From Chrysoperla carnea (Eukaryota; Arthropoda; Insecta; Neuroptera; Chrysopidae), in contig NC_058342.1 in assembly GCF_905475395.1 (NCBI RefSeq), positions 26,384,640 to 26,448,639 on the forward strand: a stretch of 64,000 bases of DNA, in the 5' to 3' direction. The translations under genes and the position numbers were made by a program. This document shows positions 20,801 through 54,285 of this stretch, one piece after another. The notes beneath the pieces were generated by a model, which saw only the letters and a program-made list of their open reading frames with translations, made no database searches and was not told where the DNA came from. The number at the start of each line of letters is the position of its first letter. Position 1 is the stretch's first letter.

Positions 20801-23047
20801 ATAAAGCACAAAGCTGTATTTACATTTTACAAAAAAAAATTTGTAGCAAGGTATTTTTGGGGTGGCAGGCGGTCTGTGGTTTTTTGATTTTGAATGCAAT
20901 TTTCTTTTTTTTTTTTGCAAAAACAACAAAAATATATTAAAAAAACAAAACAATAGAACGCAACGTGAGTGATTGAATTTAGTGGTGGGGGTTATATAAC
21001 ACGTTTAAAAAAAAAAAAACAATTGTAAATGTATTTGTGGAGCAGGACAGACATAGGCAAACAATCGCTTGGAAAACTGCTCTGATGGAATTTTTCTTGT
21101 TTTTCTAATCGGTACAGAATTTTATCTGTTTTTACAAAGATACTCTTTCCCGAACAAAAAATGAAAGGATTCAATTTTTCAATATGACGTTAAATTTCCT
21201 AAAAAATGTAAAAAATCCTAATTTCTAGGCAATTTTGGTATTATAAATGCGCATTTCGATTAAGATATAGTCATGCTCAGATCGAGTATTATTCATCGCA
21301 AATTTGATTCATGTATCTAAAAGTTATCTCTTTCTAAAGAGGTGAAAAATTTGCTAGTCTCAAAATACCGTCGAGATTTCCTATTCGTCAAAAAATTTGC
21401 TGGGCAACCACTTTGCATCGTTCTATCCTTAATTTTTTCAGTTTGGCTTTTGGCAATCAGATTTTCATTTTTCCTAGTAAAATTTCAACTGCGAAGTAAA
21501 TCAAATTCTATGTAGCCTGGTTGAATTTCCCCTTCTGACAGTGGTGAAAAGAGCGAGATTCGCCCTTCAAAATCATACTGAAAAATTATATTCTTCCATT
21601 TTTGTTCGAACGTATTATTTTACCTTCCCTTGAAAATGTAACTTCGTTTTAAATTCCGATTAACACATTCCGTAATCCGACAAACAAATAAACCATAACG
21701 TAATAAACCGTTTCTGGACTTAATCGGTCGTGATTTGCATCTGTGTAATGACAATGAGAGATGTAAAATCCCCGACTAGATAAACAAGAATATTGGCATC
21801 ATTTGAGGGAAGGCTTTCTTTAGTGTTGCTGTTTCTGCGCAGAGTGTGGACCTATGGCGTGTCCTAGTATAGTATACGTGAGATATTTGATATGTGGGTG
21901 CGTAGTCTCGTTCGTAATGTACCTGATAAGAGGGTAGCAGCATCTCGCATCCCTCGTCCATGTTAGTGATTTCAAATGTGGGCTGTGGTTGACCAACAAC
22001 ATTTGCCGGGAACATGCCCTTGCCGGGGTACGAGGTGCTGCGTCGAAACTTAACTGGTGACGACATCACGTTTGACGATTGTACACTAAAGGTGGGACTT
22101 GGTTTACGACCCACCTGCAGTCCACCGGCTGACTGTATTGGCAACATATTTGGTACAGAACGACCACGTGACCATGCTGCAGCGCCAGTCGAGCCGGATG
22201 ATAGACCACTGGAAGTCCAATTACCTCCAGTACCTTGCGGTTGCCAGGCCCCACCTGTACCAGCCGCCCCACCTTGGCTCGCGTATCCACCACTTTTTGC
22301 AACCGCTGCAACATACTGTCCAGAGGGTGGCATCTGTTGTCTAGTTCCGCCACCAGCGGCATGCAAATAGTTATGTGTAGCTGTGATTGCTCTACGACCT
22401 AATGGACTGACCAATGAATTTGTTTGTGGCGGTCCTTGTTGATAGTTTTGACGACCAAAACCACCTTGGCCTGCACCTTGACTACTCCCGTTCGTGGTCG
22501 ATCCAGACCCAGACAAGAAAGCTGTTGATGACGAATCAACAGCGTCTGTACCCCATGGAGTTGTCCCAGGTGTGATTACTTGCACACTTCCATCACTATT
22601 GACCATTACGTTACCCCCAACAGTTGTACCAGCACTATTCACCACACCTCCAGTTCCAGCACTCACAACCGATTGATGATCAACCGATCCGGTGGACGAT
22701 GACACAACTGTTGACACTAATTGTTGTTGATCAACAATCACTGTACCACTTCCTGGTGAACTTTGATTATTATTTGAATTCACCACTGTTTTCAATTTAT
22801 TCTCTTGATTTGATTGTTGATTTGATTGATTCTGTGTTGATTGTTGATTACCAGTTTGATTACCACTTTGTTGAATAACAACCGATGTTGAGACGGCACT
22901 CAATGCGCCACTCGACGACATATTATCTACGTTTACACAATTCTTTTCTGTTGAAGATGATATTTTCGTCACTACATTGACGTTTGCAGCTAATTTTAAG
23001 TCACTACTTGTCACAATACTTGCTGTAGATGATGTCTCATCTTGCAT
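8900..23047 (-). CDS. orb2: Orb2/CPEB2-4-type cytoplasmic polyadenylation element-binding protein, 8 coding exons
   Basis: Sequence-specific mRNA-binding translational regulator of the CPEB2-4 subfamily (Orb2 in insects), acting in the cytoplasm on 3' UTRs. Minus-strand coding exons: 23047-21923, 13727-13613, 12634-12590, 11153-11017, 10940-10758, 10635-10425, 9807-9515, 9016-8900 (stop TAA 8902-8900). All have GT/AG borders and phases agree, giving 742 codons. The first exon is Ser/Thr/Gly/Gln/Asn-rich, with a Q/N tract at residues about 59-96 and an RRSTSYPG block. RRM1 starts near residue 485 (KVFVGGLP, then KGYAFLLF), RRM2 near 593 (KTVFVGGVP, then GAGRVAFSN). The C-terminal ZZ-type zinc module reads CDECQGQRCGG, then CANVTCLQYYCENCW, ending VPFRWC. 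I start at the ATG at 23047; an in-frame stop lies just upstream, but an AG at 23057-23058 could instead be the acceptor of a 5' exon. Length fits insect Orb2B. Confidence 0.93.
9808..10424. other. orb2 intron with a GC-richer patch of unknown origin
   Basis: This intron lies between the RRM2 exons. About 10020-10250 is clearly less AT-rich than its surroundings. A minus-strand frame there gives fragments such as FEIDIVP and is broken by stops; it may be a transposon scrap, but I do not recognise the family. Another less AT-rich, non-coding patch lies at about 11630-11880 in a neighbouring intron. Confidence 0.35.
15329..17137 (+). CDS. Bdp1: Transcription factor TFIIIB component B'' (Bdp1), intronless
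   Basis: Bdp1 joins TBP and Brf1 to form TFIIIB, which places RNA polymerase III on tRNA, 5S and U6 genes. The 602-residue frame starts MRRTRIKAV, matching the basic start typical of the family. It contains the conserved Bdp1 block ELTMKDLIYYNPTSNPM at about residues 149-165. A Myb/SANT domain runs from about residue 279 to 335 (GDWSVYETKKFYRVLQMIG, then FKNRTRRDIKNKFKKEE). A basic, charged helix follows. Residues about 425-530 are a 25-residue tandem repeat (period 75 bp). The C-terminus is acidic (Glu/Asp/Ser). The frame is uninterrupted, and the gene sits inside orb2's intron 21922-13728 on the opposite strand. The stop falls at the start of a 162-bp tandem duplication, so the extreme C-terminus may be a later change. 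A GTAATG near 17122 could alternatively be a donor. Confidence 0.9.
   Translation: MRRTRIKAVLNVPARRNTGNRTEKSGSDLLDETEKNKATSNDNNDKKVSIETISSIRRNINTETEKPVRDDVSSSNFVKLDENENTSVVHPCSSECRPRTRSMSRCSNIQQIQKQQQPIIKRKARRSDIAEAKRDFYNKFRTRTPDRKELTMKDLIYYNPTSNPMLKQTSTSSKASKTKSVQIDSDSSSSVDSSDNDSIFSKSTLVEEENVDDSEKENIQLEPQVRIGENGEVVLDEQSVVIETTDQKKQRMNKSHELSETAINYDELDTKYGSYKRGKRKGDWSVYETKKFYRVLQMIGTNFSMMSTYFKNRTRRDIKNKFKKEEKINPQLIDKALLNPCTFDLEQLQKSLDRDKQLFDEEQLNKKKMEEIKRQERMQRKPKTNEKRVRYKTGSFLARQIYASKSDMIQDFDEDDPLLTVVPSTSTAEADSQLDPPPIMAPSIGISNTTSTAEVVSQLDHPPTLVPSIMVSNATSTAEVVSQLEHPPTLVPSIMVSNATSTAEVVSQLEHPPTLVPSIMVSNATSTAEVDSQLVNHNPIDSNPTTEVSNQNLEENNPKTDERPLKKFNSSYEDESEKESEEESEDESEDDETKKLLRVMFF
16601..16915 (+). 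repeat. In-frame 75-bp coding minisatellite in Bdp1
   Basis: The word ACATCGACAGCCGA starts at 16601, 16676, 16751, 16826 and 16901, a period of exactly 75 bp (25 codons). The units read roughly ATSTAEVVSQLEHPP then TLVPSIMVSN. Units 3 and 4 are essentially identical and the first and last are diverged, which points to recent expansion from the middle. The same repeat creates a spurious open frame on the minus strand. Confidence 0.95.
17126..17447 (+). repeat. 162-bp tandem duplication at the Bdp1 3' end
   Basis: The block starting ATGTTTTTTTAAACAAACT at 17126 recurs at 17288 and ends at about 17447 in GGTGCCTTTTTGTAACA. The copies are nearly identical (a few substitutions and small indels). 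The first copy supplies the last residues and stop codon of Bdp1. AATAAAA motifs near 17241 and 17470 are possible polyadenylation signals. Confidence 0.9.
17694..18076. mobile_element. Non-autonomous hAT-like element, 383 bp
   Basis: The left end CAGGGTTGCCAG (17694) is the inverse of the right end CTGGCAACCCTG (ending 18076). It is flanked by an 8-bp direct repeat, GCTCGAAC (17686-17693) and GCTCGAAT (18077-18084), with one mismatch, as expected for hAT insertion. Subterminal GTCGCC/GGCGAC motifs recur on both sides. No coding capacity. It lies downstream of Bdp1 within the orb2 intron. Confidence 0.82.
18090..20029. other. orb2 intron, AT-rich, no gene seen
   Basis: The longest frame (19559-19972, plus, 137 residues) is Lys/Asn/Phe-rich low complexity in A/T-only codons, has no domain, and is best explained by composition. 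Confidence 0.5.
20030..20700. repeat. Three tandem diverged ~180-bp repeat units plus a dispersed tail
   Basis: The phrase TCATCCTTCTCC(G/C).AAAAAA(T) then AAAATCCGGTCG recurs at about 20030, 20240 and 20405, each followed by a CTTGTCTTTT(C/T) and ATTTTTCTT(T/C)GGAAAAT stretch. The tail (20590-20700, GATAATTATC, AAAATGTACATATAT, GGTCATTTCAATGTCACTATAATCG) matches the ends of the repeats near 3200-3290 and 31430-31703. It is non-coding. Confidence 0.6.
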
Positions 23048-23059
23048 TGCTTTCACTAA

Positions 23060-27180: not shown

Positions 27181-27397
27181 ATTTTCACATTTATAATATT
27201 AGTTAGGATATGTTCGTGCAAAGAAAGGGAAGATTTAACACGTGAATCGAAGTGGTAGTGTAAAAATTTGCACTGTTTTTTCGGTTTGTCGCCACTCTTT
27301 TATTGCACCAGACACCTTAATAGATTGATATAACCATACTTAATTAATTACGTGTATTTAATTTAGCATTTACGTCAATTTAATATTTTTGAAAAAC

Positions 27398-27940
27398 AAG
27401 TGAAAACAAACAATTGACTGAGTTAATTGTTGAAATACCATGTATAGACAGTGTTGATTACGCAATCGTTTAGTTTTTTACGTCATGTAAGTAAAGAAAG
27501 GTACAAGAACATACTATATGTTCCTAACCTAATTTGGGTCTTCACGGGTAAACAGTTATGTTTTCGAAAAAATGTTTCAAACAAAAGTTGTTAACTTTTT
27601 TATAAGAAACATTTTTTACCTTTAAGTTTTTCTTCTATCTCTTACGGTTTACAAGATGGGTCCTACGGACCCAATACTCAATTGACCTATGTTACTCATT
27701 TACGAACTCGAACTAACTTTTTACGTCCTAAGCACGCTATAAAAATTTCAGTTCGATATCTTCTTTCGTTTTTGAGTTTTCGTAATGACAGATGGACAAC
27801 CGGAAATGAACTGATTAGGTTATTTTATGAATACATATACAAAAATTTTGTTGGTAGCATCAATATTTTTAAGCGTTGAAAAGTTGGGATTAAACTTAGT
27901 TTACCTTGATATATTTCATTTAAATATGTTATAAAAAACT
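27398..27940 (+). repeat. Family-A dispersed repeat (~570 bp), copy 1
   Basis: It starts AAGTGAAAACAAACAATTGA and TACCATGTATAGACAGTGTT. It contains GGTTTACAAGATGGGTCCTA, CTCATTTACGAACTCG, a GACAGATGGACAACCGG block and ends near GCGTTGAAAAGTTGGGATTA. Other copies: 50733-51218 and 53720-54285 (same strand), 34770-35150 and 49608-49768 (reverse), and a 5' fragment at 30544-30625. No coding frame is shared among copies, so it is non-autonomous. Confidence 0.8.
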
Positions 27941-28016
27941 GTTATGATTATTCGTAAAATTTACATTTATGAAAGATAATTCTACTGGAGTAAATCTAAG
28001 CAAAAAAAGGCTGTTA

Positions 28017-30001
28017 TATGGATTAAAAGTTCGAGCAGTGAAACTTTGGGGTTTTTCTTTTCACATCAAAATAAGTATTTTTTGAAATTTTTTACTTTCC
28101 CGGAGTGGTGCAACATGTTTAAAAAACAAAATGGCGTCAAAAATGGAATTTTTTTCAGAAATTTTATCATTTTTATTTTATATTCGCAAAAGGAGACATC
28201 GGTGTATATCCAAATTTGCTAGGTTTGTAGTCAATGTTAAGAACTACTCCTCATATTTTTTTGGTGGGGTTTCGTCCCTTCCCCTCCCAGTTATATATAT
28301 ATGTATACATACATATGGTAAAACAGTTCATTTGACTGTAACTTGAAAAATATTCGATTGATTTTAATGAAACTAATATCAATAGTAGGTTTTATTACTT
28401 ACAACTTTCGGTTAAAATTTTAGCAAAATCCGTTAAATAGTTCGGCCAAAATTTCCAATTTAGGGAATTGTTTAAAATGGCTGCCATTTTATGCCATTTT
28501 GTCCTACGAGGTTAAATTTTTTTTTAAATTGTAGCATTTTTTATTATCTTTTGATTTTATAATAAGTGACTTACCCGTAAAATGACTCCTTGATCCATAT
28601 TTTTGCGAAAAACGGAAAATTTAACACTTTCTGGAAATAATTGTTTGGGGGGTGTATGGACTGGCTTTGGGGGGTGTTTTTTGTTTTGGCATGAGAAAAC
28701 TATTTTTAAAATGGGTCTATATGGTTTAAAGCAAAATTTTTAAGTTTTAACCCCCGCGCTGTAAAGGGGAAGGGGTGTATGAAATAAATGTATCTTAAAA
28801 GATTTTAAAAAGAGGTCAAAATAGTTTAAAATGCTAAAGTAACCCAAAATATTAGCTGTTTATATTAATATAGCACTTTTTACAACATCCACCCCTTCCG
28901 CTCCCGCTTTCATATTTTTTGCAAATTCAAAATTTTTAAGATGTATGAAGGGGTTTTGGGGGTCGCTGATCTCGAACTTTTGGCCCAAATAAGTACACCC
29001 CCTAAAAATATTACAATTGTTTTTGATAATCTATTGCAAAATTCGAGATCAGCGACCTCAAAAACCCCTTTATACGTCCTAAAAATTTTGAATTTGCAAA
29101 AAATATGAAAGCGGGAGTGGAAGGGGTGGATGTTGTAAAAAGTGCTATATTAATATAAACAGCTAAAATTTTGGGTTACTTTAGCATTTTAAACCATTTT
29201 GACCTCTTTTTAAAATCTTTTAAGATACATTTTTTCATACACCCCTTCCCCCTTACAGCGCGGGGGTTAAAACTTAAAAATTTTGCTTTAAACCATACAC
29301 ACCTCTTTTAAAAATAGTTTTTTCATGCCAAAACAAAAAACACCCCCCAAAGCCAGTCCATACACCCCCCCAAACAGTTATTTCCAGAAAGTGTTAAATT
29401 TTCCGTTTTTCGCAAAAATATGGATCAAGGAGTCATTTTACGGATAAGTCACTTATTATAAAATCGAAAGATAATAAAAAATGCTACAATTTAAAAAAAA
29501 ATTTAACCTCGTAGGACAAAATGGCATAAAATGGCAGCCATTTTAAACAATTCACTAAATTGGAAATTTTGGCCGAACTATTTAACGGATTTCGCTAAAA
29601 TTTTAACCGAAAGTTGTAAGTAATAAAACCTACTATTGATATTAGTTTCATTAAAATCAATTGAATATTTTTCAAGTTACAATCAAATGAACTGTTTTAC
29701 CATATGTATGTATACATATATATATAACTGGGAGGGGAAGGGACGAAACTCCACCAAAAAAATATGAGGAGTAGTTCTTATCATTGACTACAAACCTACC
29801 AAATTTGGATATGCACCGATGTCTCCTTTTGCGAATATAAAATAAAAATGATAAAATTTCTGAAAAAAATTCCATTTTTGACGCCATTTTGTTTTTTAAA
29901 CATGTTGCACCACTCCGGGAAAGTAAAAAATTTCAAAAAATACTTATTTTGATGTGAAAAGAAAAACCCCAAAGTTTCACTGCTCGAACTTTTAATCCAT
30001 A
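28017..30001. mobile_element. Giant fold-back element, two 960-bp inverted arms
   Basis: The left arm 28017-28976 is the reverse complement of the right arm 29042-30001 over its whole 960-bp length, with only scattered mismatches, separated by a 65-bp loop (28977-29041). The outermost bases read TA-TGGATTAAAAG and CTTTTAATCCA-TA, consistent with a TA target-site duplication. Each arm carries the same 71-residue open frame (28131-28346 plus; 29672-29887 minus) differing at three residues; it matches no family I know. There is no transposase. A transcript would form a very long hairpin. Confidence 0.92.
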
Positions 30002-30987
30002 CACAAGGCGTAATTTCACTCTACTATTCTTCTCAATGGAAAATTCGAGTTAAATAAGAATTCGATGACGCAAGAAAAAATAATGATAAATTAACTATAT
30101 TTGATAATGTAGGCAATAAGGTCATTGTATTAAAAAGGGTATATATATTTGGCGTCCATGTGCGTCAATTCTCTCCCCTCATATTCAACTCAAGCGGGTT
30201 AACATCAATGCACCCCCAAATTAAATAATATATGTATTTAAAATTGAGCCTTTTTTTTTGCTATGATCAGTTTCATTTGTTTTTTTTGGTAATTCTAAAA
30301 TTTTACTATTGATTTTTTAGATTTTCATGTATTTTCAGAAAATTTTTTGTAATAATTACGTCATTGAAGTATTTTAATGTGATTAAGTTGGCTGTCATGT
30401 GTTTGATGAATTAAATAAATGCAATTATGTTTGTGGATTATGGAAAGTTTTAACAAATCAAAATACACTTCAAATATTATAAGGCCATGTTTAGACTAAT
30501 TGTAATTAATCTTGGGCTTAATAAAAAATATTAAAAAAAAAAAGGAAAACAAATTAAAATAAACAATTTACTTGAGTTAATTGTTTAAATACTCTGTATA
30601 GACAGTACTGAATATCAGTGCTTGTATTATTTTTCATAAATTAGAAAAATTATTTCCGTATATTTTCGAAGTAATCTTTGTTTGAAATCTTTATGCTTCA
30701 AAATTTTTCTCAAAAATGAACTCCTTTGATTCTCTTAATATAATCAGATTAGTTTGTGAATAGCCCCTAAAGAGCGAATTTACAAATTCATAATTGTCAC
30801 GTAAGAAAGTTTTTTTGTACACTTTGCTAAATTTTTAGAGGACGCGTTTGTTTTTAAAAAAAAGCGCGCCCAGTCTCATCGTATAACTACATCCATTGTG
30901 TTGTAGGTGTCGTTTCTAGTGTGAAAGCACCCTTTACCAATAGACAATCTTGTAAGCATATCTAATAATGATAAGATCTTCGATGTA
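30002..30987. other. AT-rich intergenic DNA with a family-A 5' fragment
   Basis: About 30544-30625 resembles the first ~80 bp of the family-A repeat (AAACAATTTACTTGAGTTAA, then CTGTATAGACAGT). Otherwise no gene is seen. Confidence 0.45.
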
Positions 30988-31937: not shown

Positions 31938-34900
31938 ATGCATTTTTCAATACCTGATACGAAGGAGTACACGGAAAATGGTAGTTCTTATATCGTAAGT
32001 AACTTAATATTACCATATTTCCCAAAATAAATAACACAAAAGCTTTCCATATTTTTTTTGTATGTAAACATTCCCTCTTTGGGAAAATTTGGTAGAAGAA
32101 ATTAATGATGAGGAAAATTATATTACAAAATTACAATCTTAGAGACATTGGAAGTTTTACCACAAATCAAAATCCATTCATCTTAAAAATCAACTTTCAC
32201 AATTTACTAAATTTTCCGTAGCCCAAAATGAATTAACTCCAATAAAAGTTAAAACCATTTTAACATTGTTAATCTATTTCAAAGAAACTATAATAAAATT
32301 TATGGTGTATTTTCTCAACGAAGTATATGAAAACATTTGGTGGTATATTTTCTAAAATTTCCTATAATTTTCCAGGGGTATAATATACATATAAATGGTG
32401 TGTACCATTGTACGGTCCGATATAAGCAATTACACAATTTACACGAACAGTTAAAACGAAAATGTGGATCATCAAATTTACCACAATTTCCACCAAAGAA
32501 ATTCTTACCCTTAACTACGTCACAACTATATGACCGTCGTGCTCAATTAGAAAAATATGTTCAAGCAAGTGAGTATTTTTATCATAAATAAATTAGTTGA
32601 ATCCTAAAAAAATATTCCTTTACAATAAATTATAAATTTAGTCATTTTCGATTGAGATTAGTGGTGCAAAGTATTTTTATCTCAAGTTCTAAAACTAAGA
32701 AATATTGGGATCTGAAGTAAAACTGTTTCCCACAAATTCGTCTGTTATTCAATCAAAAACGTAAAGAAATATCATCCTGATATTTTAAAAGCGTGTTCTT
32801 TCCCTAAAAGGTGATTATAATTTTGTGAACGTCTCAAATAAGAGATGAAAGAAAAGTTAAAAACAAAGAACTGAAAATTTGTTTACAGGTTAGGTTAGTG
32901 TCAAGGAAAAGTATTTTGGCTGAGTCAACTCCCAGGCTCACTTCTCCCTTTCTTTTAAAGATAATTTGGAGTAGATGATCAGCTTTAACCGAATATTATC
33001 TTAGTTTTTCGAGCTTTTCTCGGATTTTATGAAGATAAGTTAATGAACGCAATCAGAAGGTTATCCAAAAAGCCATAAAACTCGCAGCCTCGTGCTACCT
33101 CGACCCCATTAAAGGCATAGCCAATCCGTGAATCATAAAATGAACGCAATACCATAGAGAAAACCTATTAATTTTTCATCAGCTACAACAACGGATTTGT
33201 AATCTACGTAAAAAGTACTTTAATTTGAAAAGTCGCTAAAGATAGCCATTTGACACACGAGTGTGTCCGGATAACCTTACCGTTTTTTTTTTTTTTTTAT
33301 GTCGAAATATCATTTTTTCGCAGTTTTTAATGCTTTGCGTTCTTTCATAGCCTCTCCAAATCATGCTAATCTTACTTCGCAGTTTTTATGGCTTTGAATA
33401 TTTGTACATCCCTCAGAATTAAGCTAGAGGCTTGAAAGTCGATATGTAAATTGGATTAGGGTCATGGATGTGTCTTTCAGAGTTGTCAGCATTTTAGCCC
33501 ACCTCCCTCGTTTCCGCTCTTTTATGTAGATATCGCATATTTTCATAAATTGCAAAATATAGATAAATTCCATTTCAATAAAAAAGCATCTTCTGCTTGA
33601 TTTTAAGCAAATTTTGGTTTTGGGACCGATAGAGGTATAATGGCTGCACTGGATGTCCGGGAAACGTTATTTAAATGGAACTCCCTGTATATTATTTTAT
33701 ATTCAGGTTCTACGATCAAAATAAAATTGAATGTCATTAAAGATTACCTCACTTAAAATTCACGTTTTTCGAAATGTTATGTATTTTTTGAAAATGTAGT
33801 GAAAATTTTAACCTATAAATTCTCAAAGCTTATATCCGTTTTTCAAACCAAATTCGATTTAACTTGGAGTCTACTAATGTATTCAGTTTTTTGGTGCAAT
33901 TGTGAATAATTGAATTACGTATTGCCCAGGTTGTCCCAAAATTATGACTAAAACAAGTTTTAAACGATAGTAATTTGTTCAAATTAAATAGACGCTCTGT
34001 ATTTTATGTCAACAATACATGTAAAATGTAGTTATTTGCCAAAAACTATCAACTTTCCTATAGCTAACTGATTACGTTTTCATTTTCATAAAATTTTCTT
34101 AAAATCAAGCAGTTTATTCTTAATTTTTCTGAATAGTGAGGGGGAAATATGAGACTTTAGTGATGGAGCTGCTCACGATTTTTTTTATTTTATTCAATAT
34201 TGATTTGCGATTTTTTTTAAATTTATAGTTGGACAAGAATCACGGATAATAACATCGAACATTCTGAACAGTTTCTTACGAAATGCACAACAGGAGAGCG
34301 AAGGTTCCGTCACCGAACAGACAACAATGGATATATATTTAATGAACGGTTATCAAATACAGATACATTTATTAACAACGGATCAAACGAATACAGTTTT
34401 AAAAAAAGTATGCGAGCAAATCAATTTACCACCAGAGTATATCGATTATTTTGCGCTGTTTTGTATACGTCGTAACGAAAATGGTGATATTACAATTGTA
34501 CGAAAATTAGAAGATTTTGAATCACCGTATATTTCTCAAAAGTTATACGAAAATTCTAAACACAGCGATGTACAACGGATATATTTACGAAAAATGTAAG
34601 TTATACTTCCATCTTTATATTCTGGAAACGCAGTTCTCTGCACGATTTCACTGAGGGAAAAGCATTTTACTTGATTAGTCTAATTTTCCCCGAAAGATGT
34701 ATCAAAGGTCAACGTGAGTGGTGGATATAATTCCGTTTTATGACACCTAGAACACTTATTTATACCTTGTTTACTAAATTTAGTTCCAAGTTTGTAACGC
34801 TTAAAAATATGGATACTAGGAACAAAATTTTGGTATAATTGTTCATAAAATCATCTAATTAGTCCATTTACGGTTGTCTGTCTGCCAGCCCGTCTCCCTG

Positions 34901-37900
34901 ACAACACGATAACTCAAAAACGAAAAAAGATATCAAGCTGAAAATTTTATAGCGTGCTCAGGATGTAAAAAGTGAAGTTGAGTTCGTAAATGAGCAACAT
35001 AGGTCAAGGTCTTAGACCCATCTTGTAAATCGTTAGAGAAAGAACAAAAGTTTAAATGTAAAGAATATTTCTTTACATAATAATAAACAATTTTTCTTTG
35101 AAACATTTTTTTGTAAACGTCACTGCTTACCCGGGCGCAAGTTAGGACAACATTTTGGTGTCTTTTTCTCCAGATAGAGAGTTAAAACTATAAAAGATAG
35201 AGAGTTAAAAATTTACAGATAGCTTCAACTAGTGGTTTTTTGAAACATTCTCGAAAAACGAAACAAAATTACAGAAAATTATTTTCGAAATTTTCGAAAA
35301 CCAAATAAATAGCGGCCGGAAGTCCACTTGTTTTATTATGATACTAAATTTTTACTAATTAATATGGCGTCTGGTGGTCGCTATATTGAATTTTCATTAC
35401 TGCTATATCTTTAGTAGCACTCGCAAGGTTAAAAGAATCAAGAATAATCAAAATCGACCGACGCGTTTGGCCTCTGGTGTGCCACATAGGAATAGACATA
35501 GACTGATAAACACATTACCACTCCTTTGCGTTGCTCACTCGGGTAAAAAACCCTTTGTGTCCATGGAATCCCTGCTATCGACTAAAGTAAATGTGACCCT
35601 AATGAAGATTTGAATTTGAATTTTCGAATCAAATTTCAAATTAAGATACTTTAAAAACAGCCAGCATTTTCAGTTTTTTGACAGTCTCTTTTATTTAAAG
35701 GTGTTGGGATCCCGAATACGATTTGGAACTGATGTGTCATCCGGTATCGTTAAATCTACTGTATGTGCAAACTGTGAGCGATGTAGAACGTGGCTGGATC
35801 ATATGTACGAAAAGTGTGTTAGCACAATTAGCCGATTTACAATCGCGTGGTGCTAAAAAGCAATACTTGGAATTAGCACGAACACTTAAATATTATGGAT
35901 ATATGCAATTTGGTTATGCAATTAGTGATTATCCGCAACCGGATACACGTGTCATTATTGCGATTGGAAAACGAGAGTTGAGTATGCGATTACCGAGTGC
36001 GACAGAATGTAACACACGCGAAGGTTGTTTTAAAGTTACACGTATGCGATGTTGGCGTATTACAACTGTTCGCAAGGTAAGCGAATATGATTGACCGGAA
36101 ATTATTATGGTTAATCTAAGATTAACCTCAAACAGTCAAGTTAGTATTATAGACTCTAATATATGGAGTCAGAAAATGCTTTAAATGTTGAAAACCTGTC
36201 GTATTTCAAAAAATTGGTTTTTCTAAGTGTTCTTTAGACTTTTAGGAACATTCATCAACAATAACCTATGCCTTAATTTGAAAATTGGGGAAGTTTCAAT
36301 CACCCCCCCCCCCCCAACAAGAAACGGTCTATAAAATGATTATTTTGCCTCTTGGCTCTAGGGGGTTTTTGTTTTCTGACTACGAATACGGGGTTTGAAT
36401 TCATCAATACCACACTCCAGTGGCATACACAGTATGCTCCAACAACACCATATTCCAGTATGAGATTCGTGCCATTTTTGGTGAAAAAAAACTCATTTTT
36501 TTTGGGCGAAAATTGAAATATAAACATTTTGCTGCGAAAAATTCTACCAGAGGTTTGTTGTTGGTCGCTGATCGGCATTACTCGACATTACTTTGAAAAC
36601 TGAGAAATTTAGTGTAGGTTTCCAATCCCCAAAGCACTCCAAATAGTTACATAGTGATAAAAAAATTTTTTTAAATCAAGGTCGCTGATCATGAATTCAA
36701 GGTTAAAAAGTTGTTGTCGTATTCAGTTGCTTTTTATCCTTGAATTTATGATCAGCGACTTCGAAAACTCTCGGGGGGCAATTTCCTAGATGAAATTTTA
36801 ATTGTTTAAAATTTATTTCACTGTTACCATTTGAAGTGCTTCGGGGATGGGAAAACTACCGCAATTTTCTTAGTTTTCAAAGTACTGGCGAGGTTAGGTT
36901 AAAATTTTTATTGAAATCGGAGCTGTTCTTCCATTTTTCCACATTTGATGGTATTTTCCCGCTTATTTACTGTGTTATATAATTAATTAAAAAATTCAAA
37001 AACAGTTATTTCAAAGTTTTAAGTTTTCATTCCCGTCAACAGTCCCCATGACTGACTTTATTTATTTATTTGTTTTTTGTTTAAAACAGAATGACACAAA
37101 CGATTGTGACCCAGAACCACAACTGGAATTATCGTTTGAGTATTTATTATCGAAGGATAAGCTGCGTTGGATCAATATATCAAGTCCACATGCCATATTT
37201 ATGTCAACATGTTTACAATCGGTGGTCGACGAACTCTTATTGAAGAAGAATGGTCTTAGTGGTGGGGTAGGAGACAGCAGTGGAGCCACTAAACAATTTA
37301 ATAATATTGATGCCAAGAATCATTCATGGACCTATATGAAACGTGACGGATCTATCTCTTTAATTGATCTAAATTCATCTGTTGATGCGCCAGAAAATGT
37401 GGTAAGTAGAGTAAAATAATTGTCATTATATCTGATAGTCATTATAAGCAATATGTACGTTTTATCTCTTTGAAATAATTATCTTCTTGAGTGAAATATT
37501 ACTAGGAGCAATTACAAATGAAGTCCGGGTCCTTTGGACGCCCCAACAAGAAGAGTCCCCTGATTAGTGTCATGACTAAAAAATAGTGTCTAGTCGCTAT
37601 AATGGTACAGGGCGTCTAGCTAGCGGTCCTGGCTTAGAATGTTCGGGTCCAAAACCTAAGATCCATCAATCCTGGGAGAGATCCCGACGCAGAAGCTGTG
37701 GGCTTTCTGCGTGGTGTCTGGCCTCGACAAAATCCTTTAGCTTCGTCCGATTTTAAAAGCGCCTCCTATCCGAAGACTTTTCGTTTTCGGATTACAGGCC
37801 GTTCTCACGGAGGGCACAGAGGACTCTTGGTCTAGGCGCTAGGGGCGCACTTGCGGTACCCCTCTTTTATTTACAAGCAATTTTGAAACTTTTCTGGAAA

Positions 37901-41119: not shown

Positions 41120-41860
41120 ATACTAGAGTCAAACGTAGTATTTGACAGTCATTTCAGAACTGGGGGACTTTTATTTTAGGGAATGTCTGGAAAATGTTAA
41201 ATTACTCGGCAAGCACCTCTGAATGTTGTTCGCTGCCAAAAACAGTACATTGACAAATGTAGGTCAGATCAAAACCAAACTTTTCCATTTTCAATTCCCC
41301 CGAATGGTACTAAGAACCTCTAGCCACTCAGATGATTTTTTTGATCGCTGATGACACTTTATAAAATGAATGTTTGCTGGAAATGGCTCCAGGGGATTTT
41401 TCTTAATCGCTTAGACCCAGACATTACGGGCCTAAGCATTAATCCAGCCTAGATCTTGGCTGGATTAATGCTTAGGCCCGAGTGCTACTGAGAGTCTCTA
41501 GTCACCCCTCCCTTCATAGTTGTAGGAAAGTATGCAAAACTTAAACGAGCTGCCACAAACCTGAGACCTTTTAAGCTTTGTAGATTAGCCCAGAACCACA
41601 TTTTTCAAAAAATCCGCAAGTAATATCACGGCTCGCTATGCTCCGCCAAAGTTACATACTTTTACGGTGGATAGCGATCCCTAATCCACTCGGTGGATTG
41701 GAATTTAGTTTGTTTAGAAAAACGTAAGAAAAGACTTTGGCCATGAAAGTTTGTGTATTCTAAAAAAGTGATAAGAAACGATTTTGACGAAAGTCTCTCA
41801 AATTTCCAGTCATTCTGAATTGACTGTCAAATACTACATGTGACCCTAGACCTAATATGC
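41120..41860. mobile_element. Inverted-repeat element with a perfect internal hairpin
   Basis: The left end GTAGTATTTGACAGTCATTT with CAGAACTG is mirrored at about 41810-41845 by CAGTCATTCTGAATTGACTG and TCAAATACTAC. The family is related to the ends of the element at 38575-39560. At 41427-41449 and 41458-41480 lie 23-bp perfect inverted arms separated by 8 bases (TAGATCTT). Confidence 0.65.
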
Positions 41861-44245: not shown

Positions 44246-44999
44246 CGCCCATCGATTACAAAAAAACCAAAAAGTAATGTTTTTTAGTAAAATTGAAAAT
44301 TTTTAATGTTTTTAAATTGGTTTTCCCGTATTCGCTTACACCTGGAATTTCCTTAAACAACCTGATCTCAAGGTAAATTCCCATGTGCCAAAACTTTGAA
44401 TGCAATTCTGGAGATGAGTTTTTTTTTTACTCTCATTCACTGGGCTATTATTATCCAATTCAAATAATATAATGTACGCTAAGCGATCTTCACACGATAG
44501 CGTCTCTTGTAAAGTAATTTTGGATCCAACGTGTTTTAAATCCAAATGTTTTTACTCATACTCAGCTACATTTGTAATGAGCAGATTATCTTTAAATGTC
44601 AGGGAATTTTGAATTTTTTTTTTTAATATTCATAATAAATGATTACGCTAACGTGTGAATAGACTGGTGTACTAATATGTAATAGAAAATATAATAAAAA
44701 TGTGACTGAAGCCATCTCTAAATCATTTTCTCCGAAATTAATTTTGAAGTTGTCCAAAATATTTTAGAAAATTAATATGTCGGGAAAATTTTTTTTTCGA
44801 AGAAAATGATTTGGATGTGAGTGTATCAGGCATAAGATTCAAATGTTTTTTCAATATTATATTATTAATTTTTGTAACAGAAGGCAAAATATACAGAAAA
44901 ATATTTTATACTTGACTGATTGTGTTTTTTTTTTCTTTTGGACCCTAGATCTCTTTTGACAATTTTCTATGAAAAATATCGTCAATTATCAGGCCTATA

Positions 45000-45310
45000 T
45001 CTCGAAAAATTTTTGGCCTAGTTGAATTTTAAGTGCTTGATTGTTAATTGTTAAGAGAGCGCGCGAAAAATCACCCATGTTCTATATATGCTAGAAAGAT
45101 GGGATTTTCACAAATCAACTCGAAATAAATTCAAATTTTTCGAACTTTTCTATTAATTTGACTTATTTTGAGTCGTTTGGTGAAAATCCCATCTTTCTAG
45201 CATGCATAAAACAGCAAATCGTTATCATTGGGTGGTTTTCCGCGCGCTCTCTTAACAATAAGCAATCAAGCACTTAAATTTCAATAAGGCCAAAAATTTT
45301 TGCGGGATAC
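45000..45310. mobile_element. Short fold-back element, ~310 bp
   Basis: The left arm (about 45001-45123) has AAAATTTTTGGCCT, AAGTGCTTGATTG, TTAAGAGAGCGCGCG and CTAGAAAGATGGGATTTTCA. All are mirrored in the right arm 45172-45308 (TGAAAATCCCATCTTTCTAG, CGCGCGCTCTCTTAA, CAATCAAGCACTTAAA, AGGCCAAAAATTTTT). Confidence 0.85.
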
Positions 45311-47700: not shown

Positions 47701-47929
47701 AGTTTAAAGTTCATACTTTAATTTTCAAAATAAGCTTTAAAGCTTCGAATTACAATGTTTAAACTAAAAATAGTTAAATAAATGTATCTTAATTTCGAGG
47801 TTATTGGTTCGGGTAGTAAATTCGACCAGAAGTTTATGATTTGTGTGTATATTCTGTGTATCTTTTTTCTCCGATTCTTCAAATATTTTCTTTAAAATCG
47901 AAATCATCACATGTATATCAGTTTGAAAA

Positions 47930-49432
47930 ATGGAAAAGAAAATGGCAATTAAACTTGAAAATCAAATTAATACAGAACTCATAATTAAAGATGAAATATT
48001 AGAAGACAGTGATATTCAATTAGAAAATGAACAAATTAAAGAAGTTAATTTTACAATGGAAGATCGGAAAATTGAGGAAATTAAAAATGAAAAATTAGAC
48101 AGTGATGTTACAATCAAATTTGAATATATTCATATTGAAAAACAATTAAAAACAGAAATTAAAGAAGAAAAATTAGATGAAAGTGATTTAGAACTATTAC
48201 ATAGTGAAGAAAAACAATTTCCATGTGATGTTTGTGATAAAACATTTAAAAGAAAAAGTTATTTAATTGAACATAAACGTATTCATAGTGGAGAAAATCC
48301 ATTTTCATGTGATGTTTGTGATAAATCATTTAAAAATAAAAGTAATTTAGTTCGACATAAACGTGTTCATACCGGAGAAAAACCATTTTCATGCGATTCC
48401 TGTGATCAAAAATTCAATCAACGTAATGTTCTACTACGACATATTCAACGTTTTCACAGCGTAGGAAAATCATTTTCATGTGATATTTGTGAGAAAACAT
48501 TTAATCATCAAAGTAATCTAGTTCAACATAAACGTGTTCACATCGGTGATAAAACATTTTCATGTGATATTTGTGAAAAGAAATTTACTCATCATCAGGG
48601 TTTATTTCAACATAAACGAATTCACAGTCAAGAAAAACCATTTTCATGTGATATTTGTTGTAAAACATTTAGTCAACGTGGTAATTTTGTTGATCATCAA
48701 CGGATTCATAGTGGGGAAAGACCATTTTCATGTGATAATTGTGATAAAACATTTATAACTAAAAGTAATTTAGTTCGACATAAACGAATCCATAGTGGAG
48801 AAAAACCATTTTCATGTGATGTCTGTGATAAAACATTTAATCAGCTTAATTCTTTAATTCGACATAAATGGATTCATGGTGAAGAAAAACAAAGAATTGA
48901 ACTTAAATGTATTAATACCGAGGAAAAACTATTTTCATGTGATATTTGTTATGCAACATTTAATCAAGAAAGTCATTTAATTACGCATCAACGTGTTCAT
49001 ACCGGAGAAAAACCCTTTTCATGTGATATTTGTAAGAAAAATTTTAATCAAAAAAGTAATTTAATTAAACATAAACTTCTTCATGGTGGAGAAAAACCAT
49101 TTTCATGTGATGTTTGTGATAAAAGTTTTAATCAAAAAAGTAATTTAGTTAAACATGAACGTGTTCACGACGGAAAAAAACCATTTTCCTGTGATATTTG
49201 TAAGAAAAATTTTAATCAAAAAAGTAATTTAATTAAACATAAACGTGTCCATACTGGAGAAAAACCATTTTCATGTGATATTTGTAAAAAAACATTTAAT
49301 AATCAAAGTAATTTAGTTCAACATAAACGGATTCATAGCGAAGAAAAACTATTTTCATGTGATATTTGTAATAAAAAATTTAATTATCAAAGTAATTTAA
49401 TTAAACATAAACGTGTTCACCAAAGAATATAA
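47930..49432 (+). CDS. Poly-C2H2 zinc-finger protein 1, 14 fingers
   Basis: Probable sequence-specific DNA-binding nuclear protein, 500 residues in a single exon. The acidic/Lys-rich N-terminus (residues 1-97) has no ZAD, BTB or KRAB domain. It carries short motifs fitting the sumoylation consensus (hydrophobic-K-x-E): IIKDE at about 19-23 and EIKEE at about 76-80. Fourteen C2H2 fingers follow, mostly FSC(D/N)ICxKxF...HKR(I/V)H with TGEKPF- or SGEKPF-type linkers. An unusual long spacer after finger 8 (GEEKQRIELKCINTEEKL) splits the array 8 + 6. Fingers 10 and 12 share NQKSNLIKH helices. It is a tandem paralogue of the gene at 51802, which has the same N-terminal motif and orientation. DNA target unknown. 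An upstream non-coding exon is possible. Confidence 0.9.
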   Translation: MEKKMAIKLENQINTELIIKDEILEDSDIQLENEQIKEVNFTMEDRKIEEIKNEKLDSDVTIKFEYIHIEKQLKTEIKEEKLDESDLELLHSEEKQFPCDVCDKTFKRKSYLIEHKRIHSGENPFSCDVCDKSFKNKSNLVRHKRVHTGEKPFSCDSCDQKFNQRNVLLRHIQRFHSVGKSFSCDICEKTFNHQSNLVQHKRVHIGDKTFSCDICEKKFTHHQGLFQHKRIHSQEKPFSCDICCKTFSQRGNFVDHQRIHSGERPFSCDNCDKTFITKSNLVRHKRIHSGEKPFSCDVCDKTFNQLNSLIRHKWIHGEEKQRIELKCINTEEKLFSCDICYATFNQESHLITHQRVHTGEKPFSCDICKKNFNQKSNLIKHKLLHGGEKPFSCDVCDKSFNQKSNLVKHERVHDGKKPFSCDICKKNFNQKSNLIKHKRVHTGEKPFSCDICKKTFNNQSNLVQHKRIHSEEKLFSCDICNKKFNYQSNLIKHKRVHQRI

Positions 49433-49437
49433 GTAGT

Positions 49438-49768
49438 CGAAGAAACGATGCAATGAAATTTGAAAAATTTGACTTCATTTATTGAAAACTCCCTTAAGTG
49501 ATGGGGATACCGCTCCCTGAAGGTACCTCTGACACCAATTCTGTCACGATATTCATGTTTAGCGACCCCAAAAAACCCCGAGGAACGAGGTTTTTTGGGG
49601 TCGCTCTTTTTCATAAAATCACGTAATTAGTCCATTTGTCCGTACGCCTGTCTGTGGACACGATAACTCAAAAACGAAGTGAGGTATAGAGCTGAAATTT
49701 TTATAGCGTGCTCAAGGCGTAAAAAGTGAGGTTAAGTTTGTAAATGAGCAACATACGCAATGGCCAAT
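49438..49768. repeat. Repeat with a perfect 17-bp hairpin, then a family-A fragment (reverse)
   Basis: 49438-49605 resembles 61300-61450 (ACGATATTCATGTTTAG(C/T)GA, CCCCAAAAA). The arms at 49561-49577 and 49589-49605 (AGCGACCCCAAAAAACC and its complement) are a perfect inverted repeat around 11 bases. 49608-49768 is a reverse family-A fragment (GATAACTCAAAAACGAAG, GTAAATGAGCAACATA). Confidence 0.7.
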
Positions 49769-49899: not shown

Positions 49900-50732
49900 G
49901 GATAATGATTTTCATGTTATATTTTTGTAATAAAGAATTAATCGCAAGTTAATTTAATTATTCCTTTAACCTTAACGCTCCTTTTTTAACTTTAAAACTT
50001 TTTTTCTTCACAATTTCAAATGGAATGACCCAAATTTAATACTTAAGGATGTATGAGCACGGTAGTGGGAGCACAAATTTAAAAAATATATATTTTCAAT
50101 TTTGATGATAAATTATATTAAGAAGACAATATAAGAAGAAAAATAAGAATAAAATTTTTCAATATCTGGCGTTTTTTTCGAAATATTGAAAATTGAAAAT
50201 TTTGTTTAATTATTCAGCTTTCGATATTTCGAAACCCAAGGCACATATCGAAAAATTTTATTCTTATTTTTCGTCTACATTTATGAAGTTATAACAAAAT
50301 TCATCATCAAAGTTGAAAATAAGATAAAAATAATTTCAACCCTTAATCTACCCTGCTCTTACATCCCTTACATGGACGGTGACACTTAGTTTTTTTCTTT
50401 TCTAATTCATTGCTAATATGTTTACTTTCTATTAAAAAGTTTTTTTTAAATTTGTTTTCATTCATTCCAAATGAAAATTATCAAAAACTTCCAAAATATG
50501 TCGTTTTTTGAGATTCCTCCATAAGAGCCAATGTATTTTATATCGATTTTTAATGACTTTTCTTAAAAATTTGCACGGATACCTAAGCTGAAATTTTAAT
50601 CACATATTCTTTGAGTAAAAATCTACCTATTCAAAAATTGTGAGCCTTTAAATCAAACATTGTTGTCATGCTCATACATCCTTAACAGGATAATGAATAA
50701 AAATATTTTAAAAACTGAAAATATAAAACAAC
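49900..50732. other. Intergenic, imperfect inverted symmetry, no gene
   Basis: AAATTTTTCAATATCTGGCG (50153) and ATCGAAAAATTTTATTC (50247), and GAAAATTTTG (50190), give local dyad symmetry around 50100-50300. TGAGCAC(G)...CATACATCC words at 50055 and 50680 suggest another decayed inverted-repeat element. No coding sequence. Confidence 0.35.
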
Positions 50733-51218
50733 AAGTGAAAACAAACAATTGACTGAGTTAATTGTTGAAATACCATGCATAGTCAGTGTTGATTTCTTTA
50801 TCACATTACACATACAAACATGTGACACATACATAACTGATAATCAAGTATAGTACATATTATAAAATTTCCGCCTAATTGGCGCCCTCACGGGTAAACA
50901 GTGATGTTTACGAAAAAACCTATCTCTAACGGTTTACAAGATGGATCCTACGGACCCAAGCCCCAATTGACCTGTGATGCTCATTTACGAACTTGACCTC
51001 ATTTTTTACGTCCTGAGTACGCTGTAAAAATTTCAGCTCGATATCTTTTTTCGTTTTTGAGTTATCGTGTCCACAGACGGACGGACAACCGGAAATGGAC
51101 TAATTAGGTGATTTTATGAACACCTATGACGAAATTTTTTTCCTAGCATCATTATTTTTAAGCGTTACAAACTTGGGACTAAACTTAATATACTATGTAT
51201 ATTTCATATATACATGGT
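50733..51218 (+). repeat. Family-A dispersed repeat, upstream of zinc-finger gene 2
   Basis: Full-length-looking copy: AAGTGAAAACAAACAATTGA at the start, GGTTTACAAGATGGATCCTA, AATTTCAGCTCGATATC, ACAGACGGACGGACAACCGG, and the end ACTATGTATATTTCATATAT. Same direction as the copy at 53720. Confidence 0.85.
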
Positions 51219-51801
51219 ATAATTATTGTTATTTGATTGGATGGTGTTCAAAAACGGGGTGACAGTACATATTGAACTGTATTCCGTTTTAACCAGTAAC
51301 TATTATTGATAACTGGGAGTTGCAACTCGTCAAATGGTGATAATAATTCGTACTAGTTAATATCAGAAGAAGGCCCGAATTCAGTAGTTACAATTTGTAC
51401 TTGTACTTACTATTTTTTAAGGCCAATAAAAATATTCAAATTCAAATCAGATAAATCCCGTTAACTGGCAATAAAATTAATGGGCCGTTTTTTCAGCAGT
51501 TCCAATTTAGACCACCTGATTATTTAACATTTGTCAACAGCTGGCAATAAAAGTATACTGAATAAACGCCATCTTTCACAGTAGTCGCAGTGTATATCGG
51601 AACGCACCCTTTATTATAATATAGTCATCACGATCATCAACCTTAAAATCATTCAAATCATTGAAATAACTTTGAGGTTATAACATGTTTACATAAACTG
51701 TTAAAAATATTTTATATAATCAAAGATTTATTTAATATTTTACTTTGCAATAAAATTTATTTTAAATAATAAATTTCTGGAAGATAGTGAAACAAATTAC
51801 A
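51219..51801. other. Upstream region / 5' UTR of zinc-finger gene 2
   Basis: No coding frame. A less AT-rich patch at about 51540-51610 (GCCATCTTTCACAGTAGTCG) may be the promoter, but no core element is certain. Confidence 0.35.
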
Positions 51802-53586
51802 ATGGAGCGTGTACGTATTACATATGAAAAATCAGATACCAGTAGTGATATGAAACCTGAAAACATTCATGAAAATGATAAAAATTCAATTACAATCAAC
51901 TGTGAAAATAATATTAAAATGGAAAAACAATTAAATACAGAATTTATAATAAAAGAAGAAATATTAGAAGACATCGATGTCAACATGGAAAGTGGACACA
52001 TTGAAGAAGGTCTGGAAAATAGTTTTACAATGGAACATGGCGGCAGAATTAAGAATGAAGTTCTAAACGATTGTTATTCATTGGAATGTATACCAACTAA
52101 AAATGAAAAACTGGAAAATTCAACTACTTTAATTAACTACGAAAACATTAAACTTGAAAAACAATTAAATACAGAGCTCATAATTAAAGATGAAACAAAT
52201 TATGAACCAGTACAAGATAATTATGAAAAAAAATCATTTTCATGTGATATTTGTAATAAAACATTTACTTATCAAGGTTATTTAGTTAAACATAAACGAA
52301 TACACAGTAGAGCAATAAATACAATACAACAATTTTTATGTCGTGTTTGTTTTAAAATATTTACTCAGAAAAGTGATTTAGTTTTACATGAACGAATTCA
52401 TAACGAAGAAAAACTATTTTCATGTGATTTTTGTAATAAAACCTTTACTGAACAACACCATTTAGTTGAACATAAACGAATTGACCATGGAGAAAAACCA
52501 TTTTCATGTAATATTTGTAATAAAACATTTAATCTGCTGGGTAATTTAGTTCAACATAAACGTATTCACACCGGAGAAAAATCATTTTCATGTGATATTT
52601 GTAATAAAACATTTACTCAGAAAGGTTCGCTAGTTAAACATATACGAATTCACACCGTAGAAAAACCATTTTCATGTAATATTTGTAATAAAACATTTAA
52701 TCTGCTGGGTAATTTAGTTAAACATAAACGTATTCACACCGGAGAAAAATCATTTTCATGTGATATTTGTAATAAATCATTTACTTGGAAAAGTTCGCTA
52801 GTTTCACATATACGAATTCACACCGGAGAAAAACTATTTTCATGTGATATTTGTAATAAATCATTTACTCGGAAATTTTCGCTAGTTTCACATATACGAA
52901 TTCACACCGTAGAAAAACCATTTTCATGTAATATTTGCAATAAAACATTTAATCTGCTGGGTAATTTAGTTAAACATAAACGTATTCACACCGGAGAAAA
53001 ATCATTTTCATGTGATATTTGTAATAAATCATTTACTTATCAACACCATTTAGTTGAACATAAACGAATTCACAGCGGAGAAAAACCATTTTCATGTAAT
53101 ATTTGTAATAAATCATTTACTCGGAAATTTTCGCTAGTTTCACATATACGAATTCACACCGGAAAAAAACCATTTTCATGTAATATTTGCAATAAAACAT
53201 TTACTCGGAAAGGTTCGCTAGTTTCACATATACGAATTCACACCGTAGAAAAACCATTTTCATGTAATATTTGTAATAAAACATTTAATCTGCTGGGTAA
53301 TTTAGTTAAACATAAACGTATTCACACCGGAGAAAAATCATTTTCATGTGATGTTTGTAATAAAACATTTACTCAGAAAGGTTCGCTAGTTATACATAAA
53401 CGTATTCACACCGGAGAAAAACTATTTTCATGTGATATTTGTAATAAATCATTTACTCGGAAATTTTCGCTAGTTTCACATATACGAATTCACACCGTAG
53501 AAAAATCATTTTCATGTAATATTTGCAATAAAACATTTCGACATAAAATTTCTTTAATTGGTCATAAACGTATTCATACTAAATAA
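51802..53586 (+). CDS. Poly-C2H2 zinc-finger protein 2, 16 fingers
   Basis: Probable DNA-binding nuclear protein, 594 residues from the ATG at 51802; the longer open frame begins at a GTG, which is not a credible start here. The N-terminal ~145 residues are acidic and lack known effector domains. They contain two copies of an LNTE(F/L)IIK(E/D)E motif (about residues 46-55 and 126-135), also present once in the neighbouring paralogue as INTELIIKDE, each including a K-x-E site. Sixteen C2H2 fingers follow. The specificity-determining segment LLGNLV occurs in four fingers and RKFSLVSH in three; many are identical at the DNA level, implying recent internal duplication or conversion. Several linkers read HTVEKPF or HTVEKSF rather than the usual HTGEKPF. 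Finger 2 (FLCRVCFKIF) follows a long linker, and finger 3 has HKRIDH spacing. Confidence 0.9.
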   Translation: MERVRITYEKSDTSSDMKPENIHENDKNSITINCENNIKMEKQLNTEFIIKEEILEDIDVNMESGHIEEGLENSFTMEHGGRIKNEVLNDCYSLECIPTKNEKLENSTTLINYENIKLEKQLNTELIIKDETNYEPVQDNYEKKSFSCDICNKTFTYQGYLVKHKRIHSRAINTIQQFLCRVCFKIFTQKSDLVLHERIHNEEKLFSCDFCNKTFTEQHHLVEHKRIDHGEKPFSCNICNKTFNLLGNLVQHKRIHTGEKSFSCDICNKTFTQKGSLVKHIRIHTVEKPFSCNICNKTFNLLGNLVKHKRIHTGEKSFSCDICNKSFTWKSSLVSHIRIHTGEKLFSCDICNKSFTRKFSLVSHIRIHTVEKPFSCNICNKTFNLLGNLVKHKRIHTGEKSFSCDICNKSFTYQHHLVEHKRIHSGEKPFSCNICNKSFTRKFSLVSHIRIHTGKKPFSCNICNKTFTRKGSLVSHIRIHTVEKPFSCNICNKTFNLLGNLVKHKRIHTGEKSFSCDVCNKTFTQKGSLVIHKRIHTGEKLFSCDICNKSFTRKFSLVSHIRIHTVEKSFSCNICNKTFRHKISLIGHKRIHTK

Positions 53587-53719
53587 AAATCATTTTAATG
53601 TAATATTTAGATAATTTTTCCTTAAAATATATTTGTTTATTTTTTGTTGATAATTTTTGTAAATAACGTTTTTTTGGTTTAAAAAAAAAAAAAATCAAAA
53701 ACCCGATTGTATTAAATAC

Positions 53720-54285
53720 AAGTGAAAACAAACAATTGACTGAGTTATTTGTTGAAATACCATGTATAGACAGTGTTGATGCGCAATCGTTTGTTTTTTG
53801 ACGTCACGTAAATAACAAAAGATATTCACTTTTAAATAGACACACACACACAACTGATATTCCTATATTAATACATACTATAAAATTTGCACTTAATTAA
53901 CGCCCTCGTGGGTAAACAGTGATGTTTACAAAAAAATATTTGAAAAAAGTTTTTTATTTTTTTATAAGGAACATTTTTTACATTTAAACTTTTGTTCTAT
54001 CTCTAACGGTTTACAAGATGGGTCCTACGGACCCAAGACCCAATTGACCTATGATGCTCATTTACGAACTTGACCTCACTTTTTATGTCCTGAGTACGCT
54101 GTAAAAATTTCAGCTCGATATCTTTTTTCGTTTTTGAGTTATCGTATCCACAGACGGACGGACGGACGGACAACCGGAAATGAATTAATTAGGTGATTCT
54201 ATGAACACCTATACCAAAATTTTTTTCGTAGCATCAATATTTTTAAGCGTTACAAACTTGAGATGAAACTTAATATACTATGTAT
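53720..54285 (+). repeat. Family-A dispersed repeat, between zinc-finger gene 2 and eIF2D
   Basis: It starts AAGTGAAAACAAACAATTGA (first base approximate) and contains GGTTTACAAGATGGGTCCTA, AAATTTCAGCTCGATATC and three extra GACG units in GACGGACGGACGGAC. It ends AAACTTAATATACTATGTAT. It separates the tail-to-tail genes. Confidence 0.85.

Follow-up and report, generated by a model that had tools for sequence, protein, structure and literature searches.

The long palindrome of Chrysoperla carnea described here forms the foldback-type body of a non-autonomous DNA transposon, which recurs at hundreds of places in the genome, makes target duplications of 3 bp and carries two arms that evolve in concert around a loop found in either orientation. 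In the window, that is, the whole 64,000-nucleotide stretch analysed (C6:26384640-26448639), the element measures 2044 bp (27983-30026) and has TTC on each side. Our model as a whole, in which this transposon would be mobilised in trans while its arms pair, convert each other and invert the loop, has in our judgement a probability of about 0.78.

Results

Architecture of the palindrome

The palindrome foreseen in the original prediction, two equal arms around a short loop, is confirmed (Table 1). BLAST gives the arms an identity of 97.1% with 25 mismatches, and global alignment places 25 substitutions (18 transitions and 7 transversions) and 2 indel columns inside them, in agreement with the scattered mismatches that had been expected, with a further mismatch immediately outside, at 28016. 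The arm lengths are equal because each arm has a 1-base indel and the two cancel each other. In the folding check proposed at the outset, the central 1491 nt collapsed into a single long hairpin of -1134 kcal/mol; by alignment and folding, the long inverted repeats constitute most of the element and are able to snap back. BLAST detected no second copy of the palindrome within the window, where the runner-up among the self-palindromes listed is 312 bp long and 78% self-complementary.

The inner end of the left arm matches the outer arm end (AAAAGTTCGAG..CAGYGA) with a local score of 14, which is reached by 0.045% of random 40-mers from the window, and at the inner end of the right arm the resemblance is weak (score 9, reached by 5.6% of such 40-mers). 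A TA stands beside both inner arm ends and also at both outer borders of the palindrome. An origin of the core in two inverted units is possible, given the repetition of the outer end at the left inner end. Two separate units that still move on their own today were also considered and dropped, since no solo unit occurs among the fetched copies.

Table 1. Features of the element copy in the window and their coordinates
Feature	Position	Strand	Description
Left target-site duplication	27980..27982	.	3 bp, TTC; the window copy is L048
Left outer end of element	27983..28016	+	34 bp, TACTGGAGTAAATCTAAGCAAAAAAAGGCTGTTA
Left palindrome arm	28017..28976	+	960 bp, starts TATGGATTAAAAG; BLAST and global alignment
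Inner end of left arm	28971..28989	-	Repeats the outer arm end (AAAAGTTCGAG); TA next to it, 28990-28991
Loop	28977..29041	.	65 bp; other copies carry either orientation relative to the outer ends
Right palindrome arm	29042..30001	-	960 bp, ends CTTTTAATCCATA; BLAST and global alignment
Right outer end of element	30002..30026	+	25 bp, CACAAGGCGTAATTTCACTCTACTA
Right target-site duplication	30027..30029	.	3 bp, TTC

Copies, ends and target-site duplication

The genome searched comprises 559 Mb in 337 contigs, the six most often met of which measure 38.6 to 140 Mb. A search with one arm returned 81 matches from 40 scored of 1027 candidates; the exact 19-base left end occurs at 389 places, and left junctions with at most 2 mismatches at 537 genome-wide, with 0 in the reversed control of either count. 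Whether the arms occur elsewhere as a unit had been named beforehand as a test, and both the arm search and the count of left junctions place the unit at hundreds of sites. Copies were drawn in two sets: 40 stretches with flanks picked by similarity to the window arm, including the window copy, of which 37 have both borders; and 60 stretches with the exact left end on contig C1, taken in order among 100 listed of the 389. Four more places (L109-L112) were picked as absent among the listed left junctions.

Beyond the palindrome borders, 36 of the 37 fetched copies with both borders share a left stretch of about 34 bp and a right stretch of 25 bp, with single-base changes only among the 36 and a left stretch of 35 bp in L033; the remaining copy, L020, carries the right-hand stretch at both borders. 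The border-to-border span is 1982-1986 bp in 29 of the 37 (the window copy included). The TA borders (28017-28018 and 30000-30001), which had been taken for the ends of the element, are thus internal to it: a TA target duplication with TA-TGG borders as ends was dropped because the sequence outside them is shared by other copies and the duplication that lies beyond is of 3 bp, not TA as in Tc1/mariner elements. The actual termini are TACTGGAGTAAATCTAAGC... and ...GGCGTAATTTCACTCTACTA. The palindrome stops short of them, leaving 34 and 25 bp of unlike sequence outside, and these outer ends are poor inverted repeats, with a local score that 8% of random 25-mers from the window reach. After the exact left end the next base is A at all 389 places, and at the right end a base other than C precedes GTAATTTCACTCTACTA at only 3 exact places in the genome, always T.

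The 3-bp target duplication is perfect in 91 of the 93 copies with both ends, all sets taken together. In the first set it is perfect in 36/36 and extends to 4 bp in 0/36, whereas shuffled right flanks gave a mean of 6.1 matches in 36 and a maximum of 12. The C1 set has 51/53 perfect duplications, with a 4-bp extension in 1/53, and the four additional places have 4/4. Left out of this count are 10 copies without the right end in the stretch (3/40 in the first set and 7/60 in C1) as well as L020, which has two right ends. The targets are mostly AT-rich (TAT, ATA, TTA, AAA), and GTC, GCT, GTG and AAG also occur.

The element shares with non-autonomous class II (cut-and-paste) transposons a target duplication of fixed length at dispersed sites; it is non-coding, and it has a high copy number, a common standard length and a 2-kb body that is a single palindrome between poorly repeated ends. 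Its longest stop-to-stop frame is 86 aa, in line with the expected lack of a transposase, and a search of the genome for a transposase-bearing relative with the exact element ends, in which a partner with diverged ends would be missed, found none. Target duplications of 3 bp are known from the PIF/Harbinger, CMC/EnSpm and Zator superfamilies. As no transposase is linked to the ends, the element is assigned to no superfamily. Our literature searches, which included the outer-end and arm-end sequences, returned no paper on the family; a tRNA scan, phage records and patterns in viral and prokaryote contigs yielded nothing useful.

Variant forms

The usual arm start is replaced by other sequence after the left end at only 4 exact places (L055, L113, L114 and L115), and L113 and L114 start with a diverged arm (420 bp seen). 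In L055 (C1:14575677-14577927), both outer ends are joined directly in a 63-bp form that has its own ATA/ATA duplication, so that a palindrome-free form exists. Its interpretation as an ancestral empty element was dropped, given the scarcity of exact atypical left junctions and the failure to find the exact 61-bp form without the palindrome in the genome. L020 (C3:11241990-11244862) has two right ends and no loop, and where other copies have the 3-bp duplication it has a direct repeat of 8 bp (TAAACATA). L115/L117 (C2:49696085-49700885) is an older copy in which a different inverted-repeat element is nested at the left junction; the nested element has TAGTCTAAGATCC... ends and an apparent TAT duplication, and possibly belongs to the same 3-bp class. 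This locus was considered as an autonomous partner and dropped, because past the nested element the arm continues for about 480 bp at 92.5%, with no long frame.

Among the C1 copies that have both ends, 25 of 53 are shorter than 2015 bp, and over both sets 31 of 89 are. The deletion removes the centre (reference position 1022) in 23 of these 31, and the deletion junction shows an overlap of 1-17 bases in 18 of the 30 short copies with a mapped junction, its placement within such similar arms being partly ambiguous. In 7/31 (L015, L031, L046, L050, L070, L094, L108) the left arm is retained as far as the edge of the loop (reference 981-998), and the right arm is partly lost. The simple mirror form of that deletion was found in 0/31, although L095 and L075, once past a deletion on the left, pick up again at the right inner edge or close to it; the left/right bias thus seen involves small numbers.

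Arm homogenisation and loop orientation

The comparison of arms covered 58 full-length copies, of which 30 came from the first set and 28 from C1; the 31 short copies and L109-L112 were left out. Differences were counted along the outermost 900 bp of each arm. The arms of one copy differ on average at 5.4 of the 900 sites and those of different copies at 20.4, and for 95 of 116 arms the nearest or joint nearest arm is the partner in the same copy. Arms do not group by flank side (20.33 vs 20.38) or by loop side (20.36 vs 20.35). Among the 319 variants private to one of the 58 copies, 146 are present in both arms and 173 in one, against 0.45 symmetric ones expected from independent mutation; some of them may also occur in copies outside the sample, in which case it was an ancestor that underwent the homogenisation. 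Gene conversion between the arms, one of the two explanations originally offered for their high identity, fits this excess. At four diagnostic sites (215, 238, 838 and 844) only 3, 2, 2 and 3 of the 58 copies are asymmetric; by their four-site haplotypes, 26 copies have one symmetric form and 20 the alternative. The loop is in one orientation in 30 copies and in the other in 28, and both orientations occur within the two commonest haplotypes (14:12 and 10:10). The arms evolve in concert, and exchange between them, by recombination or by template switching, explains the pattern.

The more symmetric private variants a copy has, the fewer one-arm variants it tends to carry (rho -0.29, P=0.028). 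Differences between own arms show mild clustering (P=0.011), and symmetric and one-arm private sites do not segregate into tracts (P=0.48); a test for GC bias of conversion gave none (P=0.50). The number of own-arm differences ranges from 0 to 25 and is overdispersed, with a variance/mean of 4.4, which suggests insertions of differing age and a conversion that lags behind in some copies. The window copy has 20 differences over the 900 sites; it ranks 56th of 58 and is among the most diverged sampled. A recent fold-back transposon had been one of the two readings proposed for this locus: the transposon is borne out by the foldback core, the hundreds of copies and the 3-bp duplications, whereas its recency holds only in part for the window copy.

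Edge effect along the arms

The symmetric share of private variants, in steps of 100 bp from the outer end, is 4/20, 15/35, 18/31, 19/29, 21/32, 21/39, 17/40, 15/40 and 16/53. It peaks in mid-arm and is low at both edges, a quadratic fit being better than a flat one (likelihood ratio P=7.5e-6). Close to the outer border, all 13 copies that are asymmetric at site 21 (counted from TGG; window 28039) have C in the left arm and T in the right arm, and their loops are divided 9:4 between the two orientations. Beside the loop, in 38 of 58 copies the base at site 940 depends on the side of the loop, T or G, and is independent of the flank. Some mid-arm asymmetries, each found in 3-5 copies, look inherited by side (5/5 at site 534, 3/3 each at sites 187 and 701). 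The outer edges tend to travel with the flanks and the inner edges with the loop, and exchange occurs mostly between them. This profile fits crossing-over and conversion between inverted repeats, since a requirement for a minimum of homology would produce it.

Genomic surroundings

The genes of the window, as judged from reading frames and Pfam matches, mark it as animal nuclear DNA. The palindrome is located between an open frame on the minus strand (21776-23059) and a downstream SNX17-like gene with PX and SNX17 FERM domains, of which the frame from 31938 beginning MHFSIPDTKE is presumably the first exon. The window also holds an eIF2D winged-helix frame and a Myb-domain frame, and C2H2 zinc-finger long open frames with tandem 84-bp units are found at 47927-49432 and 51766-53586. 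Another dispersed repeat family has five copies (27391-27934, 34759-35133, 49610-49761, 50726-51222 and 53714-54288), about 77-92% alike over the longer pieces, one of them directly to the left of the element. Four shorter self-palindromes, at 44998-45309 (78% self-complementary), 50091-50321 (76%), 41427-41480 (96%) and 36681-36759 (78%), are perhaps other inverted-repeat elements.

Discussion

We propose that a transposase supplied elsewhere would move the element by means of its short and unlike outer ends (34 and 25 bp), making the 3-bp duplications. As no transposase-bearing relative with these ends was found, mobilisation in trans is something that we infer. The two arms would pair with each other, probably in the germ line, where non-crossover events would copy one arm onto the other and crossovers between the arms would invert the loop. 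Exchange of this kind would require homology on both sides, and so it would be rarer near the outer border and the loop and commonest in mid-arm. Copies escaping exchange would slowly diverge, as may be the case of the window copy, and others would lose the centre through internal deletion. Several results count against this model: the poor inverted repeats of the outer ends, an overdispersion of own-arm differences that would not be predicted from a steady rate of conversion alone, the mid-arm asymmetries that look inherited by side, the lack of tracts and of GC bias, and the near-loop sites with at most one difference in 21 of the 58 copies.

Polymerase template switching at replication forks, rather than recombinational exchange, might also homogenise the arms and invert the loop, and in the yeast short inverted repeats treated in parts of PMC8604942 it is described as giving both outcomes. 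A nascent strand that folds back on itself should, by our own reasoning, favour the sites closest to the loop, but a smaller share of the private variants is symmetric in the inner 200 bp than in the middle of the arm (31/93 vs 79/131, P=8e-5), and 37 of the 58 copies keep at least 2 own-arm differences at sites 915-958. The near-loop sites are not immune, however, since 21 copies keep at most one difference there, and switching between strands of two molecules would be free of any loop-proximal bias. With these points on both sides, we regard template switching as somewhat unlikely, and homologous recombination as the probable basis of the exchange.

The wide spread of own-arm differences (0 to 25, variance/mean 4.4), which resembles that of insertions of different age, would also be expected if the arms were made symmetric only at each transposition, by gap repair or through a hairpin intermediate, and then diverged passively. 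Against this doubtful alternative, the difference at site 21 lies on the same side in all 13 asymmetric copies and has most likely been carried unchanged through transposition, and symmetry drops at the arm edges. Both observations make the re-templating of whole arms at every move unlikely, a partial form of the idea being easier to reconcile with them. In a further reading, the arms would exchange during a transposition-linked stage (excision and gap repair, or an extrachromosomal form), with conversion in mid-arm, flipping of the loop and faithful copying of the outer ends. We consider this reading improbable; if it were true, palindromy would be actively renewed by the transposon each generation, rather than being a mere leftover.

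A hairpin-RNA locus, whose double-stranded transcript would give rise to siRNAs and for which the palindrome would be maintained, was the other reading offered by the original prediction. A transcript of the palindrome would indeed be predicted to fold almost perfectly, to judge from the folding energy given above. Nevertheless, the window has no Rfam match at gathering scores, and hundreds of copies of the unit are dispersed in the genome, so that a role specific to this locus is not needed; such a function seems very unlikely. An artefact of assembly or polishing is still harder to defend: short reads could produce random loop orientations and mid-arm blurring in 2-kb palindromes, and polishing with them, by blurring the middle of the arms more than the edges, would mimic part of the edge effect, but independent errors in each copy are unlikely to result in two symmetric four-site haplotypes shared by 26 and 20 of the 58 copies, the target duplications are clean in 91 of the 93 copies examined with both ends, and mid-arm asymmetries persist in many copies. 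Finally, the idea that the palindrome itself is a TA-targeting foldback element of the Tc1/mariner type, suggested by the TA at both outer borders and beside both inner arm ends, so that the core may have arisen from an inverted pair of TA-flanked units of about 970 bp each, is scarcely credible, considering that 36 of the 37 fetched copies with both borders carry the same outer ends, that only 4 places have C or T directly before the exact arm end (2 of these lie at the usual distance from left ends among those listed) and that a search for the exact 61-bp palindrome-free site gave no match.

Among transposons already described, those of the foldback type resemble the present element. The FB element of Drosophila is of the foldback type, with long inverted repeats and a short middle. 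Galileo and Tetris, as described in parts of PMC4168063 and PMC4079207, likewise combine long inverted repeats and a short middle with rearranged and internally varied forms; according to the same parts, Tetris has no conserved open frames, no autonomous copy of it was found, and in two of its three complete copies the internal repeats were noted to cluster with each other, for which homogenisation is a possible cause. Their target duplications are of 7-8 bp in Galileo and 8-10 bp in Tetris (PMC4168063, PMC4079207). Unlike these elements, as far as those parts describe them, the present one has unlike termini, a palindrome that ends 34 and 25 bp short of them and a 3-bp duplication, and it is found at hundreds of copies with the loop in both orientations (PMC4168063, PMC4079207). 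Duplications of 7-10 bp were not seen in our copies, with the exception of the 8-bp direct repeat of L020.

Long palindromes are generally held to be unstable, and the upkeep of arm likeness has been studied mainly in large sex-chromosome palindromes. In the latter, as reported in PMC8981503 and elsewhere, the arms are likewise kept alike by conversion between them; those palindromes are large and chromosomal, whereas the present one is mobile, 2 kb long and present at hundreds of sites, and the GC-biased conversion reported in PMC8981503 is not seen in it. The arm homogenisation and spacer inversion of the yeast short inverted repeats are shared by our element, though the yeast arms in the parts of PMC8604942 concerned measure about 5-16 bp, and those described here are 960 bp long and have an edge effect at both ends.

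The element belongs to an ordinary class of object and is an unusually informative record of palindrome exchange. Here, over 500 sites carry one and the same palindrome; its outer landmarks are fixed, inversions can be read from the loop, and conversions from the arm variants. Its copies give a position-resolved profile of the exchange between arms, low at both edges and high in the middle, and they constitute natural replicates for measuring the rates of exchange, the length of the tracts and the link to transposition.
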